Shown here: positions 2,471-62,187 of the stretch, piece by piece
Layout of the letters: each line of letters opens with the position of its first letter
Position numbering within the stretch: position 1 is the first letter of the stretch
Source: Macrotrachela quadricornifera
Lineage: Eukaryota > Rotifera > Eurotatoria > Philodinida > Philodinidae
Direction: 5' to 3'
NCBI GenBank assembly: GCA_022393335.1
Contig: JAJEKB010018899.1
Span: forward strand, 46,927 to 110,926
DNA: 64,000 nucleotides
The notes under the pieces: generated by a model
The model's input: the letters and a program-made list of their open reading frames with translations, nothing else
What the model was told of the DNA's origin: nothing
Database searches by the model: none
Program-made: the position numbers and the translations under genes

Positions 2471-3758
2471 ATGTCTTTTCATACTATCACTATCGATGAT
2501 CAACTTGAACCAGCTAAAGTTGATTTTACGTCTGTTCAATCACATTCATCTGTAGCAGAATATTGGACTTTTAAAGTTGAAGAAAATCGCGATATTATTA
2601 AGAACTCTTCGCAAAATTATTCGTCTTTGTACACTATTTCTAATGATTCATACACTGAAACATCATCAAATGCTATTCTACAAGCATTTGTTTCAGCTTA
2701 TAATCAACATCATGATATTGTACTCTCACCTGACGATATGTGGATGGTTGTATGCTTATATTTTGCTAAGCATGTCAATGATAATGCTGAACAATTACGT
2801 TCACTCTTTGTTGAACATTATGATGGTAAAATAAATTTGACCGTTCGTGATTTTCAGAATAAAAATCAATGGGATAATTTTTTTGATGCAATGAAAGCAA
2901 AAATCATGAATAATGTTAAGGGTGATATATGTCGTATATTGACAGCTGATTTTTCAACTACAGGCAAGATTGAATCAATTCTCTCAACTGCATGCATCAT
3001 GCATACATTTAAGCCTTACTTTAATTATAGACGAGTAATGAGGTGCATTTGTGGAATTCGACGAGTACATTTTATGGGTAAATACTATTATTTATTTGTA
3101 ATTGAAATAGTGCATTTTGATCTTTATAGCAGAATAAAAAATATTTTGAGATGCTTTTTTTTTAATTTACAATTTGAGAAGATTGCAATAAATGCAATAA
3201 TTATAAGTTGTTTAAAAAAAATGTCTTATTGAAGTGTTACATTAATCTATTAAATCATTCTCTTTTTTTTTTATAGGTACTTTACATGACTGGCAATCAC
3301 TTTATATCAAAGCACAACAATTACAATCATTTGGTAATGATCAATTCCGCAAATATATAGATGGTATTTTGCCTATCTTTGATGAGTTTATTAAAACTTA
3401 TCAAGGTAATGTAAATAAGCAATTCTGGATTAAAGTTTGTGATATTACACGAGATACAGGCCTCAGATATGGCGGTGGAGGATCAGGAAAATTGATCACT
3501 GGTTGGATATTGAAACTATTTGGGTTAGAAGCTGATAGGGTTCGCGATCCATCTGACATACACTTACCCAATATTCGTGTACCAGTTAAACTCGAAGATG
3601 AAATGACTGGCAAACAGACACAATGCTACATTGTCGGTGGATTTCATGGTATCTACTCGACAGATAATCGTCACAAGCCAGTGATGAGTCTGTCGGTCAT
3701 TGAAGAAACAAAGCCAAGTCAATCGAAAAAGGAAATATCAGATTATGACGAAGATTAA
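2471..3758 (+). CDS. DUF4419-domain protein, two exons
   Basis: Exons are 2471-3077 and 3277-3758, giving 362 codons plus stop. The intron starts GTAAAT, ends in a T-run plus TATAG, and rejoins the frame exactly. The start is the first ATG after AT-rich leader DNA. Hallmarks of DUF4419 seen here are the SPDDMWMVV block (about residues 88-96), the HVNDNAEQLR block that follows, the CGIRRVHFMG strand spanning the splice junction (about residues 194-203), the DITRDTG segment and a GGGGSGKLITGWI stretch. Family length is roughly 350-420 aa, so the gene looks complete. DUF4419 proteins are widespread in fungi and invertebrates and their biochemical role is not established. There is no signal peptide or membrane helix, so it is probably cytosolic. 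Reading on past the donor without splicing hits a stop at 3232 and loses the second half of the domain. Confidence 0.85.
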
Positions 3759-28423: not shown

Positions 28424-30551
28424 ATGAACACAATGAATTCATTTAAGCTCATCTGCATACTTGGCTTGGTCTGCAAAATTGATGCTCTCGCTTTAGGACT
28501 AAAATCAACCAATGCAAAAATGGGATCAGAGCAGAAGCTAAGTTTAGCCAACACCGTCTTTAATACCGAAGTACTGACACAGTTCAATTATCAAGGCAGT
28601 GAAATCTACATTTACAGCGCTGTGCCAAATGAAATCAAAAATAGTGATGCACCTAAGAAGTGGACCTTCTACTATGTACCCATTATGATACCAGCAATCA
28701 CTAATCATTCAGGAGGCAAATGCATATTTACAGTGGAGAACGAAGTTAGAATCCGATTGATGTTAGGTAATAATGAAGTTAAAGAAATGGCAGCAAGAGA
28801 AATCATCAAGAAATATGATCTAAATATTACTAAACATTCACACTCCTGGGTTATTGCTCCACTGATGATCGACTCGTTAACGGCTTATCTTGTTCGAAAA
28901 ACAACAAACTTACCGGTTAAAGATATCTTTCCTTTCAAAGCTGAAAATCCAAACGAATTGGAAATGGAATTTCGATTCGAATGTTCTTCCAGTGTACATG
29001 CAACAGAAGTTGAAAAAAAAATCGTTGATGATGATGTCTATGGAATCGAAGTAATTTTTCACTTTGCCGGTTCCAGACACATGACAACCAATACGATTTT
29101 GATCACCAGTGACATACTGAAGACTGTGGCCAGTAAGACGATTACCGATGGTGGCAATTCCAACGCTCAGTATATACACCGGAATCAAGGATCAGCATTT
29201 GTCAGCAAATATGTGGCCAATATAAAGTCGATGAGCTACATCGAGGATCGAAGTGTAAATGATCCACCATTGTTCACTACTCTACTAGGGCAATTGAATG
29301 CATTGTTACAACAAGGTAGACACTCTTGTGGTATACTTAAGTTTGATTGTAGTCATCATTTTCTCTCTAATTATAGCACTGATTTCATCAGCTCAAATAC
29401 AACTTGCCATCGAACTCTACGATCAAGTTTGGTCGGCTCGGGACTTAAATCCTGATCGCATAACTAGTGAATTCAATAAAGTATTCACCTTCAATAAGAC
29501 AGCAACAGAGGAGCATAACTCTTCGAGTCAGTACTTCAATTTTCATAAAGCAAATGCAATATTACCGGCTAAATCAGGACATGGCGGCTTTAATTTCAAG
29601 GGCTTCGGTATAGAAGCTGGAGGTGATATATCAGATTTAAATTCAAGTAATGTTTCAAACACGACAAAGTCATTATATTCTCTAACTGAAATCGAAGACT
29701 TACTCAAGCAAGAATCAGTTCAAATGGCATGGACGGGTGAAAAATTCATACCGAAGTCATTGTTTGTTTATCGACTCACTGATATTACCGATCGTCTAGA
29801 AGTTCATATTAACTCTCAACAAAGGTTTGCTGAGAAGAAAAGCGGTGGTTTTGTTCGTGTAGTGAATCTTAGAAGTAAACCATTACCAGCCTCAGACGGA
29901 TACTCATCACCACTTGTAGGTGAAATAAAGTTGTACTCGGGTGATACATCATTTCTACCACGTCATTGGGTGTTCTGTGATGAGCAAGCTCTCTCTCGCA
30001 TCGAATATCGTCGTCTATTTTCTGTTATCGGCGAATCATTTGGAGTCGGTGATGGAAATACAACATTTAATGTACCCGATTTTCGCGATCGTTTCCCACT
30101 AGGTTATGATCCCATTGGAAATCAAGTAAACGGTTGGAAAAAAGGAGGAAATAAAGAACAGATACTCACAATTGATCAAATGCCTACTCATTATCATAAT
30201 GCTGGTACATTAAACACTGCTAATGAAGGCATTCATAAACATAAGGTCAATGATCCAGGCCATAATCACGGGGGATATACCGGAGTACACTCTACACATG
30301 TAATACATAGCGAGAACCTCGCTTGGCATGGCACCAACGTCAAGGACCGCTACGCCATCTTCTACAATACCGTATCTCATAAACACAGTATTCCAGTGGG
30401 ACTAAGTGGGATAACCCTCAAAGATGATGGTACTCATTCTCATTCGATTCAAGGTGCAACCAACTCAACTGGTGGTGGAAAATCATTTAGCATTATACCA
30501 CCTTATCAGACTATTGCTTACATCATCTTCACTGGAGCAAACCATGCTTGA
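28424..30551 (+). CDS. Secreted protein with C-terminal phage tail-collar domain, two exons
   Basis: Exons 28424-29315 and 29377-30551 (61-bp GT-AG intron) join in phase to 688 codons. The N-terminus is a signal peptide (SFKLICILGLVC). Residues about 30-470 are a beta-rich region with no family I recognise. From about 477 the sequence is a tail-collar domain as in phage tail fibres and bacterial microcystin-dependent (MdpB-like) proteins: GEIKLYSGDTSFLPRHWVFCDE, then a DGNTTFNVPDFRDRFPLGYDP block. A histidine-rich tail (MPTHYHN, HKHKVNDPGHNHGG, HSHSIQG) and the closing PPYQTIAYIIF strand follow. In phages this region trimerises and binds surface ligands or metal. The intron and signal peptide show it is resident in a eukaryotic genome. 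The collar module is probably of bacterial or phage origin; a surface-binding or adhesive role is inference. Confidence 0.85.
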
Positions 30552-57453: not shown

Positions 57454-60400
57454 ATGTCTAACGATAGTCTCAATGCAAATACTAACGATCATATAGGACA
57501 GTACTTTGACTTTAATAATCGAAGTGCTCGGTATCAAGCTGAATCAGTTCTACTAGAAGATACAAAAAATGCAGCAGCAAGATTTGAAGAAGAACGGGAT
57601 ACAATTCTACGTAGCCGTGCATGGGCAAGACTTAAAGGTATTTACCAGTTTGCAATAAATTATACTGATCCACGGCTGACGAATCGTGAAGCACATTCTA
57701 TCAATGTAAAAGACACGGCCGAAAAGATAGCAAAAAATTTGGGATTGGGCAGAGAAAGCCAACTTTTGGCAGGTAATATAGGACTAGTTCATGATATTGG
57801 TCATCCACCGTTCGCACATTGGGGTCAATTGGCAATAAAAAAAGCTTTACAACCTCATGGATTAAACTGGAATCATGATACTGCCGGTGTAAGAATACTC
57901 ACCGATTGGATGGAAGATGGCAAAGAGGGTCGAAATTGGTCTCCGACTTTCATTGAAGGCATGGTCAAAAGATTCTGGCATTATGACCAGAGCAAGCCAT
58001 GTAGTTTTTATAATCATGAAATGACAGAAATCCCTGATATAGTAAAAAGTATAGACCAAGCGCATAACGGTGTAATGAAGTTGGAAAGTTTTAACCACAT
58101 AGAAGGGCAAATAGCCGCTCAATCTGATCGTTTGTCTTTCAACGTAACCGACCTTGAAGACGGATTTCGTATCGGACGTTTTACGCCAGAGATGATAAAA
58201 AGCAACTTTCCGTTCGCTTGGGATATTTTGGATAGAACAGTCGATGAATTTATAGCTGAATATAAGATTATTACTTCCTGTGATAAACATATTCAGTTAC
58301 TTAAAACTATCATCTACAAAGATATTGATATGATGGGCTTCATCAGTCAAAGATTTGCTGCATCTTTTCACGAAGCATTAATGCAAAACCTACTTGATAA
58401 TACAATGGTAAATCTTAAAAAAGCCATAGATGCGCAACTAATTCAGAATGCGGAAGATATCCGAAATTTTGATAGTGTATGTGTGGAATTTTCTTCAACA
58501 CTCAATGAACAGTTCAAAAAATACGCTCGTTTTTGCCGTGAATGTATATTCAAGGCAACAGCACCATTTGAACATTTGGTTGCTGCAATGATCAATAATT
58601 ATGAAATCGGAAAAGTTCAGCTTCCACCAATCTGGCAGAAGGAGTTTAACGAGATTCAGACGGCTGGTGAAAAGATTGAGATTATTGCTAAATTTCTCAC
58701 ATGTGAAATAACTGATCGCGATGTGATCAATCATGTGTCTAAATATTCGCCTGATGTTTATCGTGATCACTGTCCACCATTTGAATCAATAGTAGATAGC
58801 AATCTAACATTTGACGAAGCTACTAAGCGAATGAATGAGTTACTTCGAAAATATTTCGAAAATAACATTGGCATACCAATAATCTCTGTCGACGACCTCG
58901 ATTTTAGCGATGATAAATCAATTCCAATCATTTCCGTGGCAAAGAAGTTCATTCTCAGTGTACCACGGCAGGGTGAAACTATCCAGATTACGAGTACGGG
59001 CAAATACAAATCTGGTGAAGAATTTCATCAAGGTGATCCCGTGAAGTGCGGAGACGATATTATCAGTGGTACGGGCATCGCTTTTTATAATCCTACCGAT
59101 GATCAGTGGTTGGCTGCCATTTCAGGACTTGAACAGGATGATCGCAACGTCATAGTTTTAAATGAAGTGACTCGAGAGCAAGCAATACGGCTACAAAAAA
59201 CACTAGATGAGTATGGTGATCCAGAAAGAATTACAATATCACAACTCAAAGAAATTCTTGCTTATGCAAAAAGTCTAGGACTTACTAACCGTTACACTTC
59301 AAACGTTGGTTTCGTTAAGAAAATGATGGAGAATGTTCCAGGATATGAAAAGGCACCTGGATCCATATATGGATGGAAACAAAGAAAAGGAGCGCATATC
59401 TGTCGAGCTATTTATATTGAAGGTGCTGGAGAGTTATTTCAATCACTTGGAGAACCAGAAAAATTCTATGATGGTGCTTTGATGGTCAAACATGCTACGG
59501 ACCGGATACATGTTCTCGCTAGTAACGTAGGTTTTCGGACCTATCGCCATTTGAATAATAGTGTAATCGCAAAAGATGATGTTCCGTTGCAAGAGCCACA
59601 TAGAACCGAAAAATTCCGAACAACCCACGAAATTACAAGCGGTTTTGACTCAACAAAGATAGTTATCGTCGGTGCAGGTGTAAGCGGAATTATATCAGCC
59701 ACGTATCTGATTCAGGAATTTCTTAAAACTACTCCTTTTGGCTACACTTTGGAAATAAGTATAATTGATTCAATCAGAAATCCAGGAGGATCTACATATA
59801 ATCGGCCATCACCGGCAAGAGTTACTATGGCTAATTCGATCGGAGGCCTGGGAATCGAATCGTCAACCGCTTGTATGGAACACATTAACAAAGATCCCGA
59901 AAAATGGAAGAATATATTTCGTGATGCAGCTTATAAAAAAGATCAAGGCTTTGATCCTCAAGCAAGTGTTTCACATGCGCAGTATGGAGAGTACGTCCGT
60001 GATCATTTCGAATCATTTATCAAACTTCTTGAATCGAACAAAGCTCCAGTAAAAGCTGAGTTTATTCATGACAGAGTAATCAAAGCCACGGAAGATGCAG
60101 CTGCGAGTAAATGTATAGTCACGTTAGGAAGTGGAAACCAAATTTGCGCTAATGCTATCGTATATGCCATGGGAAATGCCAATCCAAAGCCACTCGTGGA
60201 TAAAGATAGTCTTACGTTATGTGGCAAAAATGGCTATTACAATCTTGACGACCATGCGTTCACTCCAGAAAATGTGAATGAAACTGATTTTACTGTGATC
60301 ATAGGCACTGGAAACGGGGCGTGCTTTTCCGCTCTATGGGCAGTGGATCATGGTTACAATGGAAAATTTCTATTGGTATCAAGGAGTGGTCTAGTGCCTG

Positions 60401-62187
60401 AAGTAGCTAATCAATCCAAGCCATACACTAGAAGTATATGTACAGTTGAGAAGTTTGTAGGAGAAATGAAAGGAACAACAAATATAACAGCTGATTACTT
60501 AATGGAGCTATTCAAAAAGGAGATGATAGTTGCTCGTGCAGCAGGATTCGAATGGCGAGATGTAGTAGATTCGATGTTCCCTGACGCGAATATACTATGG
60601 AGATCGATGAATCGAAATGAACAGCAATCTTTCATACAAAAACACGGCGCGTTATGGTGGGGTGCCAGATACAGAATTCCCAATGAGCAATGGGAACAGG
60701 TAAATAAACTTCGGAGGGAAGGAAGACTGGAAATTTCGGGTGGATTACAATATATAGAAATTGCTACAGATACCGGTTTCAATTTGACTATCAAAAATCC
60801 GGATGAATCTCTTAGAATTGTGCACACAAAAAAAATTGTTAATAACACTGGTCCATCAAAATGTTTGGAACAAATGCCTGTATGCGCCAAAGAACTCGTT
60901 GCCAATGGTTTAGCAAGAATGCACCATAATGGAGGGCTTGATGTTAATGATCATTTTAGACTCATTAATGCTGAAGGTCAACCATCGTCACAGTTTTATG
61001 CACTGGGACCTATCGTCAGTGGTGCATATCCTGAGTCAATAACAATTCCGGCTATTCGCTGCAACGCTAGTATAATGTCCAACTCATTAATTCAGCATCA
61101 TGTTACTGCAAAAAGAAATGAACTTCATTTCAGTGGTTACAACCATAGACCTTACGATTATTCGACAATGAATCCGGATATGCTTTCCGATGAATTTAAG
61201 AAAACACGCTTTGCTCATAGCCTAACAAAAATCTATCCACGACATTATACAGTGGAAGAGAAAGCTCAATTCTATACTATTGAATTTGCAGAAAAAGCGC
61301 TAGCATCCGGTAAAATTAGTGCTCCGCCAAATAAATCAGTACTTTGGTCCGGTGGTTACATTCCTTCACATCCACTCGGTTATGGATTGAGTAGAATTAT
61401 CGCTGAACGTTGGTTAGTGGAAAAGAATGCTGAAGTTGAATCAAAAAGTGAGGATAATTATACATGTGAAGACCTTTATCATACAGTAGCCATGACGGAG
61501 GCAGGATTACCAATTCTAAATGAAATGTGGGACGATTTGAGTATTCCTTACAGCATAAAAAAACTAGTGACACCTACCTATATTTTGGGTTTTGCTGCAT
61601 GTGCCATTGGTGAAATCAGTCTCAATGTGGATGATACAGACACAGATTCATTCTTTCGTGAAAATGAATTACAGATTGTTATGGAGAATCCCAATATTAC
61701 TTCGGTCAGAGTAATAAGAGTGAATCGTGAAACAGACACCTTGCAAGAAACTTTATATGTAGATCGGCACAAATGGTATAATGCTCAGAAAGATCAATGG
61801 GTAAATTCTATAATAGCTAGATATCAACTGGCCCGTCGTAGCTGGGAAAGAAGTAATTGTAATTATCCATTATATGAACGTATGTCGAGATCTTTAATCG
61901 AAGAACTGTACGATAGTTATACAAATATGACAAGTGGGAACAAGCTGATTCAAGGATTTCATAGAGTAATTGATATAGAATACAAAGATATTAGTCAGGA
62001 GCACGACAAAGCGTTGGAAATATTGCGATTGAAAAAGTTTGCTCCGCTGATTGAAACTGATCACGAGTTATTAAATCATGACAAAGCAAATAACGAAGAT
62101 TTCAGAATGGCTCTGAAAAATTTTTATTCAATCAAGGATGGCGAAGCGCGTAAACAATCATTAGACCTTACTCAAGAGAACATGTAG
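57454..62187 (+). CDS. Intronless fusion: dGTPase-like HD phosphohydrolase + unknown middle region + FAD/NAD(P)-binding enzyme
   Basis: One uninterrupted frame encodes 1,577 residues. Residues about 1-470 resemble bacterial dGTP triphosphohydrolases: RSRAWARLKGIYQF, then the complete HD set H81 (REAHS), H113-D114 (VHDIGHPPFAHWG) and D225 (AAQSDRLSF), plus the LNWNHD motif. Known relatives hydrolyse dGTP to deoxyguanosine and triphosphate. Residues about 490-720 are unrecognised (SNVGF...IYIEGAGELF...DRIHVLASNVGFRTYR). From about 735 an FAD-binding Rossmann motif (IVIVGAGVSGIISATYL) opens an HcpA/YdhS-like FAD-NAD(P)-binding domain, with a second nucleotide motif near 946 (VIIGTGNGACFSALW) and a late NNTGP block. 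About 350 C-terminal residues are unassigned. There is no signal peptide, so it is probably cytosolic. No introns in 4.7 kb, beside a gene with 45, suggests horizontal acquisition. Metal ligands and dinucleotide motifs look intact. Confidence 0.85.
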   Translation: MSNDSLNANTNDHIGQYFDFNNRSARYQAESVLLEDTKNAAARFEEERDTILRSRAWARLKGIYQFAINYTDPRLTNREAHSINVKDTAEKIAKNLGLGRESQLLAGNIGLVHDIGHPPFAHWGQLAIKKALQPHGLNWNHDTAGVRILTDWMEDGKEGRNWSPTFIEGMVKRFWHYDQSKPCSFYNHEMTEIPDIVKSIDQAHNGVMKLESFNHIEGQIAAQSDRLSFNVTDLEDGFRIGRFTPEMIKSNFPFAWDILDRTVDEFIAEYKIITSCDKHIQLLKTIIYKDIDMMGFISQRFAASFHEALMQNLLDNTMVNLKKAIDAQLIQNAEDIRNFDSVCVEFSSTLNEQFKKYARFCRECIFKATAPFEHLVAAMINNYEIGKVQLPPIWQKEFNEIQTAGEKIEIIAKFLTCEITDRDVINHVSKYSPDVYRDHCPPFESIVDSNLTFDEATKRMNELLRKYFENNIGIPIISVDDLDFSDDKSIPIISVAKKFILSVPRQGETIQITSTGKYKSGEEFHQGDPVKCGDDIISGTGIAFYNPTDDQWLAAISGLEQDDRNVIVLNEVTREQAIRLQKTLDEYGDPERITISQLKEILAYAKSLGLTNRYTSNVGFVKKMMENVPGYEKAPGSIYGWKQRKGAHICRAIYIEGAGELFQSLGEPEKFYDGALMVKHATDRIHVLASNVGFRTYRHLNNSVIAKDDVPLQEPHRTEKFRTTHEITSGFDSTKIVIVGAGVSGIISATYLIQEFLKTTPFGYTLEISIIDSIRNPGGSTYNRPSPARVTMANSIGGLGIESSTACMEHINKDPEKWKNIFRDAAYKKDQGFDPQASVSHAQYGEYVRDHFESFIKLLESNKAPVKAEFIHDRVIKATEDAAASKCIVTLGSGNQICANAIVYAMGNANPKPLVDKDSLTLCGKNGYYNLDDHAFTPENVNETDFTVIIGTGNGACFSALWAVDHGYNGKFLLVSRSGLVPEVANQSKPYTRSICTVEKFVGEMKGTTNITADYLMELFKKEMIVARAAGFEWRDVVDSMFPDANILWRSMNRNEQQSFIQKHGALWWGARYRIPNEQWEQVNKLRREGRLEISGGLQYIEIATDTGFNLTIKNPDESLRIVHTKKIVNNTGPSKCLEQMPVCAKELVANGLARMHHNGGLDVNDHFRLINAEGQPSSQFYALGPIVSGAYPESITIPAIRCNASIMSNSLIQHHVTAKRNELHFSGYNHRPYDYSTMNPDMLSDEFKKTRFAHSLTKIYPRHYTVEEKAQFYTIEFAEKALASGKISAPPNKSVLWSGGYIPSHPLGYGLSRIIAERWLVEKNAEVESKSEDNYTCEDLYHTVAMTEAGLPILNEMWDDLSIPYSIKKLVTPTYILGFAACAIGEISLNVDDTDTDSFFRENELQIVMENPNITSVRVIRVNRETDTLQETLYVDRHKWYNAQKDQWVNSIIARYQLARRSWERSNCNYPLYERMSRSLIEELYDSYTNMTSGNKLIQGFHRVIDIEYKDISQEHDKALEILRLKKFAPLIETDHELLNHDKANNEDFRMALKNFYSIKDGEARKQSLDLTQENM

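Follow-up and report, generated by a model that had tools for sequence, protein, structure and literature searches.

A horizontally acquired-looking four-module gene with HD, flavin-enzyme and tentative ADP-ribosyl-cyclase-like parts in the rotifer Macrotrachela quadricornifera

The gene described here lies in a stretch of 64,000 nucleotides of the Macrotrachela quadricornifera genome (assembly GCA_022393335.1, contig JAJEKB010018899.1, positions 46,927 to 110,926, forward strand), referred to as the window. It is a single intronless frame of 1,577 codons at positions 57454-62187 (+), running from ATG to stop, exactly the coordinates and length (1,577 aa) given in a preliminary description of this DNA made from its letters alone. 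Its product consists of four modules, M1, M2, M3 and M5, the number M4 being kept for a module found in relatives. The features of the gene are listed below.

57454-62187 (+): whole gene, one frame of 1,577 codons, intronless; four genome copies without internal stops
57454-58863 (+): M1, residues 1-470, HD domain of the deoxynucleoside triphosphate (dNTP) triphosphohydrolase type (PF01966, TIGR01353, PADLOC dGTPase, 2dqb)
57694-57696 (+): H81, predicted metal ligand, identical in 14/14 rows
57790-57795 (+): H113-D114, predicted metal ligands, identical in 14/14 rows
58126-58128 (+): D225, predicted metal ligand, identical in 14/14 rows
58864-59628 (+): M2, residues 471-725, no known family (no Pfam match; blastp per module)
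59629-61089 (+): M3, residues 726-1212, FAD/NAD(P)-binding, class B flavin-monooxygenase-like (PF13454; low-confidence model comparison)
59671-59688 (+): GAGVSG, first dinucleotide-binding motif, residue 740 (alignment)
60304-60321 (+): GTGNGA, second glycine-rich motif, residue 951 (alignment)
61156-62103 (+): M5, about residues 1235-1550, tentatively ADP-ribosyl-cyclase-like (profile against PDB sequences, hmmsearch control, hhalign)
61345-61347 (+): W1298, candidate active-site tryptophan (WSG motif), identical in 6/6 rows
61405-61407 (+): E1318, pairs with the TLED glutamate of the genome's CD38-like gene (alignment, hhalign)
61666-61668 (+): E1405, pairs with the catalytic glutamate, SFFxxxEL motif (profile, alignment, hhalign)

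The reading frame and its four copies

Four near-full-length matches to the gene are present in the 450 Mb genome, and none of them contains an internal stop; chance is excluded as the source of the frame. The copies are located on the window contig (C3463, 111 kb) and on contigs C4891 (2.1 Mb), C3902 (271 kb) and C2190. The window copy and that on C4891 are 97.3% identical in DNA, those on C2190 and C3902 are 98.1% identical, and identity between these pairs is 88.2-88.4%. Within pairs the similarity extends beyond the open reading frame (ORF) into the flanks, whereas between pairs it stops about 50 bases or less from the ORF; such a pattern is expected if the pairs are allele-like and sit at two loci that arose by an old duplication. 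In copy L002 a run of N covers the first codons.

The ratio of nonsynonymous to synonymous substitution rates (dN/dS), obtained with our own Nei-Gojobori script for the six pairwise comparisons of the four copies, was 0.21-0.26 over the whole length and at most 0.33 for every module in all six pairs; for the last 32-42 codons it was 0.23-0.29 and undefined in one pair. The whole gene, with each of its four modules, is under purifying selection. Its base composition is like that of the other ORFs in the window (G+C 0.386 and third-position G+C 0.30, compared with 0.34-0.38 and 0.19-0.37 in five other ORFs). A contaminant bacterial scaffold, the danger named in the preliminary description, was ruled out, as the contigs that bear copies measure 111 kb, 271 kb and 2.1 Mb and have animal-type genes next to the copies. 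In the window the neighbouring ORFs encode carboxylesterase, TIG, G8 and fibronectin type II domains, and the C3902 copy is flanked by 7tm_1, phosphodiesterase and TLDc ORFs (Pfam); the 10 kb adjoining the C4891 copy (L094) are open in all six frames from end to end, were taken as N and are uninformative.

The modules of the protein

In M1, the Pfam HD model (PF01966) matched residues 80-158 (E 4e-8, 34 bits against a cut-off of 22), and the best dGTPase model, TIGR01353, matched residues 43-368 (E 1e-30). The PADLOC dGTPase model also matched (E 1.7e-31), and the PDB sequences matching M1 were dNTPases, the best being 2dqb (E 4e-14). The metal ligands proposed in the preliminary description, H81, H113-D114 and D225, proved identical in all 14 aligned rows that carry the module (P0012, which has no such module, was left out) and in 5/5 aligned canonical dGTPases, taken from 80 available. 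The HD fold, the four metal ligands and the second-sphere H141 are common to M1 and the canonical dGTPases of TIGR01353, but residue 142 is Asp in 14/14 fused-family rows and Asn in 5/5 canonical enzymes; M1 further differs from bacterial dGTPases in falling under the family cut-off, in a long separating branch and in being fused to three further modules. It was concluded that M1 probably works like a dNTPase. Judged by sequence, it stands outside the named dGTPase and anti-phage dGTPase subfamilies, since it misses the NCBI curated cut-offs, that of the anti-phage model NF041026 included (56.9 against 400).

No Pfam match was obtained for residues 471-725 (M2) or for about residues 1235-1550 (M5), and the two unassigned modules noted previously are thus real. 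According to per-module blastp, M2 is present in those relatives in which M3 is found from the N-terminus onward; an M2 profile searched against PDB sequences returned weak unrelated rows only (best E 0.056).

The assignment of M3 as a flavin/nicotinamide-dinucleotide enzyme was borne out by NAD_binding_9 (PF13454), which matched residues 737-908 above its cut-off (E 7e-13, 49.2 bits against 21.8). Of the two Rossmann motifs described, GAGVSG at residue 740 holds, but GTGNGA at residue 951 is weaker and reads GTANGA in P0007-P0010. M3 looks like a class B flavin monooxygenase in a structure comparison, which was based on a low-confidence model of 858 residues that hardly tests the M5 part; no matches outside the flavin part were listed, a weak test, and an M3 sequence profile found no related flavoprotein in PDB. 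Among the structure matches is the aspartate N-hydroxylase FzmM (FzmM/CreE type; 8cp5, 8cp2), whose alignments, at 253-262 residues, are the longest. Compared with the YdhS-like FAD/NAD(P)-binding proteins of PF13454 and with FzmM/CreE, M3 differs in being one part of a fusion.

FzmM is described as the first enzyme of natural-product pathways (PMC10404684), and bdelloids are reported to employ acquired biosynthetic genes (PMC11258130). The gene could accordingly be a biosynthetic multi-enzyme, in which an HD phosphohydrolase, an N- or C-oxygenase and an NAD-cleaving step together yield a small molecule built from a nucleotide, an amino acid or NAD, and which would join those other acquired biosynthetic genes. 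This is considered rather unlikely: the FzmM alignments have a root-mean-square deviation of 15 and a Z score tied with many other flavoproteins, and no carrier-protein or synthetase domain appeared in the Pfam scan. The text of PMC11258130 has no occurrence of dGTP, phosphohydrolase, NAD-binding, FAD-dependent or HD domain.

The C-terminal module, for which the preliminary description had no assignment, resembles weakly but colinearly the ADP-ribosyl cyclases (ARC; CD38 fold), a new finding. When a three-row M5 profile was searched against 177,635 PDB sequences, the five listed at E<=1 were ADP-ribosyl cyclases without exception, the best at E 0.012, and one antibody joined them at E<=5; a six-row profile listed four, again all ADP-ribosyl cyclases and weaker (best E 0.084). 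Two colinear stretches carry the match, PKNKTVLWSGGY and the stretch AEGE...DSFFRENEL. The genome also has a CD38-like gene of the usual animal kind with several exons (L095, C4667:19078-19722; PF02267, E 1.3e-27). With its joined exons hhalign gave a single colinear alignment, 110 columns long with 32% identity (P 0.0027), in which W1298 pairs with the WSG tryptophan, E1318 with the TLED glutamate and E1405 with the catalytic glutamate; all three residues are identical in 6/6 rows. In an hmmsearch control on the same exons the M5 profile scored 3.4 bits and the reversed profile 1.1, and none of 200 column shuffles reached the M5 score (best 2.2). The WSG, Glu and SFFxxxEL-Glu motifs, whose assignment to CD38 numbering we take as given, are colinear in M5 with those of CD38, the Aplysia cyclase and the bacterial Tac1, ARCtox and Nac1. 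From the known cyclases M5 differs in that PF02267 is blind to it, one tryptophan is unaligned, and it is not secreted and is fused to an HD/flavin protein. A version of M5 without a second glutamate was dropped after alignment to the CD38-like gene.

M5 might instead have another fold, with two short chance resemblances to the cyclases. Several observations speak for this and weigh against the cyclase assignment: the profile E-values (0.012 with three rows, 0.084 with six) are weak, Pfam found no match in 3/3 rows, a PF02267 search of the rotifer's own genome returned C4667 only and not this gene, the hhalign probability was 11% (with a single-sequence template), and the second active-site tryptophan falls unaligned in a gap. 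Nevertheless, only ADP-ribosyl cyclases appeared at E<=1, the WSG tryptophan and both catalytic glutamates lie within the colinear matches, and no shuffle matched the score. The chance explanation is thus doubtful, and a cyclase-like M5 is likely, at about three in four. Bacterial ARC domains are described as toxins hydrolysing NAD+ and NADP+, in which the equivalent of CD38 Glu226 is essential and a second glutamate favours hydrolysis over release of cyclic ADP-ribose (PMC12356396; PMC12605009). As both glutamates are present, the rotifer module would be expected by analogy to hydrolyse rather than to stop at cyclic ADP-ribose.

Relatives and origin of the gene

Relatives were sought among 5.8 billion proteins, with the window protein (11 at E<=1e-5) and with an alignment of eight (12 at E<=1e-8, three of them new; scoring was limited to the 7,999 candidates with the most words in common); the candidate lengths follow the whole query, and stand-alone M5 proteins are outside the reach of these searches. 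Five rotifer-like relatives with 70-85% identity were found, namely Adineta vaga I4U23_022998, Didymodactylos carnosus (partial), Adineta ricciae, P0002 and P0005. Nine relatives are not rotifer-like and combine the same modules in differing ways. Of these nine, P0014 comes from a Bdellovibrionales metagenome-assembled genome (2.4 Mb contig); the other eight, from JGI, ENA or Logan (as the label 'lgn' was read), are presumably bacterial.

The module combinations, drawn from per-module blastp and Pfam, are M1-M2-M3-M4 in P0007, P0008, P0009, P0010 and P0013; the C-terminal part of M3 followed by M4, M5 and additional domains, among them a methyltransferase, in P0012; M1-M4 in P0014, with the zeta-like module directly behind HD; and M1, M4 and a true zeta domain in P0015. 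The metagenome protein P0011 (1437 aa) has the rotifer order M1-M2-M3-M5 and has a linker before M5 in common with the rotifers (HFSGYNHRPYDYS; HYSWFDHRPYDYT). The same fusion was thus found in three named bdelloids and outside rotifers, and the architecture is not peculiar to an animal: P0011 has that order, and other relatives have HD, middle and flavin modules followed by a different module. At 43 columns where all seven other rows have Gly, P0011 has W in 26 and G in eight; since W stands in 26 of these 43 columns, TGA is read as Gly in P0011, and the database translation gives W. The same reading of TGA occurs in NCBI table 25, the code of Gracilibacteria and Absconditabacteria.

M4, present in P0007-P0010 and P0012-P0015, is a zeta-toxin-like module with a constant GGMSVGMT that replaces the Walker A lysine. 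This module, which resembles the Zeta toxin family (PF06414), is absent from the rotifer proteins and P0011. A common ancestry of M4 and M5 found no support in blastp (best E 1.6). The zeta-type modules of relatives are nucleotide-acting and toxin-like. That the modules shuffle with zeta-like and true zeta-toxin (P0015) and methyltransferase (P0012) domains, and that ARC toxins are known (PMC12356396; PMC12605009), would also fit a protein of the bacterial effector or polymorphic-toxin type, which the rotifer took up and turned against microbes or retains for other reasons. Such an effector is improbable, as the Pfam matches of the scanned relatives include no secretion or delivery domain and an unrestrained cytosolic toxin is not expected to stay intact at two loci.

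The HD phylogeny against bacterial dGTPases comprised 34 rows, of which 14 are fused forms and 20 are canonical dGTPases picked from 80 loci. The six rotifer rows formed one clade (100/100), sister to the metagenome protein P0007 (97/98), and the canonical dGTPases stood far off behind a branch that is 2.58 changes per column long (100/99). A single clade of all fused forms is not claimed from this tree. Together with the nearest non-rotifer relatives being metagenome or bacterial proteins, it supports the horizontal origin proposed earlier. The fused gene does not appear to be a rotifer invention, and a whole multi-domain bacterial-type gene was probably transferred into a bdelloid ancestor. 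Transfer of a ready-made gene is the simplest reading; the much greater diversity of the non-rotifer forms makes the reverse direction, from rotifer to bacteria, unlikely.

Other collections were searched for a donor. A genome-contig scan by the canonical HDIGHPPF motif was taken up by dGTPases, and the 80 loci retained from it match only within query residues 3-421. Viral contigs gave no relative for the flavin, C-terminal and zeta-like modules, and 14 phage records matched in the HD part only. P0008 was matched by 550 plasmid records, none covering more than 80% of it, and plasmids gave no match to M5 or M4 of P0012. Among whole genomes in the phylum of G001, the flavin module was found in 17/398 (E<=1e-20; open frames of 459-1053 aa). 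A whole-genome search with PF02267 gave one weak match in 249 genomes. The fused profile (0/297 at E<=1e-60), the zeta-like module (0/398 and 0/241), M5 (0/398) and, in another scan, the flavin module (0/8) gave empty answers, which show little.

Proposed function and genomic surroundings

We propose, with a probability of about one half, that a complete bacterial-type multi-domain gene entered a bdelloid ancestor and was kept as a working enzyme on nucleotide pools. In its favour stand the single frame, the two loci with intact copies, the purifying selection on each of the four modules, the occurrence of the protein in three named bdelloids, and non-rotifer relatives made of the same modules. 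The module activities, their coupling and any defence, stress or metabolic role in the rotifer are predictions from sequence. In the proposed scheme, the HD module would bind metal at H81/H113/D114/D225 and remove triphosphate from (d)NTPs; the flavin module would use NADPH, flavin adenine dinucleotide (FAD) and oxygen in class B monooxygenase chemistry; and in M5, E1405, helped by W1298 and E1318, would attack NAD(P)+ and release nicotinamide and (cyclic) ADP-ribose. The modules may jointly act on the pool of dNTP, NAD(P)H and NAD(P)+. The protein is most likely a nucleotide-depleting or nucleotide-signalling enzyme derived from a bacterial conflict or stress system, and may serve stress or defence inside the rotifer cell; an enzyme draining or converting nucleotide pools, of bacterial conflict origin, is suggested because three of the four modules point to nucleotides and relatives swap zeta-type modules.

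Besides the M5 points given above, this proposal has to reckon with a TIGR01353 score of 107.4 bits, below the cut-off of 152.35; with the weak support (83/43) for the clade of rotifers and seven other fused forms; with the very long branch of P0011, outside the other fused forms; with a donor lineage not found among named genomes; and with the fact that no secretion, immunity or defence neighbour was seen beside the gene. In a stronger form, decidedly unlikely, a ready-made conflict enzyme would hit both the dNTP and NAD(P) pools, the flavin monooxygenase serving it as a redox sensor or a switch, and would act in cell-autonomous immunity or as a desiccation/DNA-repair brake; such a two-pool depleting effector is not known from any animal.

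In the literature on bdelloid horizontal gene transfer, on dGTPase/zeta/FAD fusions, on dNTPase/NADase defence and on ADP-ribosyl cyclases, covered by titles and the beginnings of abstracts, no description of the fused protein was found (supplementary tables of acquired genes, not covered, may contain it), and the module combination appears undescribed. If the proposal is right, an animal lineage received and retained an entire bacterial-type enzyme of four modules, HD dNTPase and ADP-ribosyl-cyclase-like chemistry are joined in one chain, and the gene makes it possible to test concretely whether animals use conflict genes acquired from bacteria for innate immunity or stress tolerance. It also points to a rare bacterial protein family, largely unnamed and apparently undescribed in the papers searched.

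Some minor features of the surroundings were also recorded. On C3902, beside the 85% copy, an ORF for a type I phosphodiesterase/nucleotide pyrophosphatase (L091, 5158-7611; E 9.7e-19) lies about 2.4 kb away from that copy's end, a nucleotide-related neighbour that may be there by chance. In the window, a DUF4419 domain is encoded at 2471-3232 (+) (E 5.3e-37), and a phage tail collar ORF at 29298-30551 (+) (PF07484, E 2.9e-18) stands among animal-type genes and is perhaps another acquired gene; it overlaps the ORF at 28424-29455 in a different frame.
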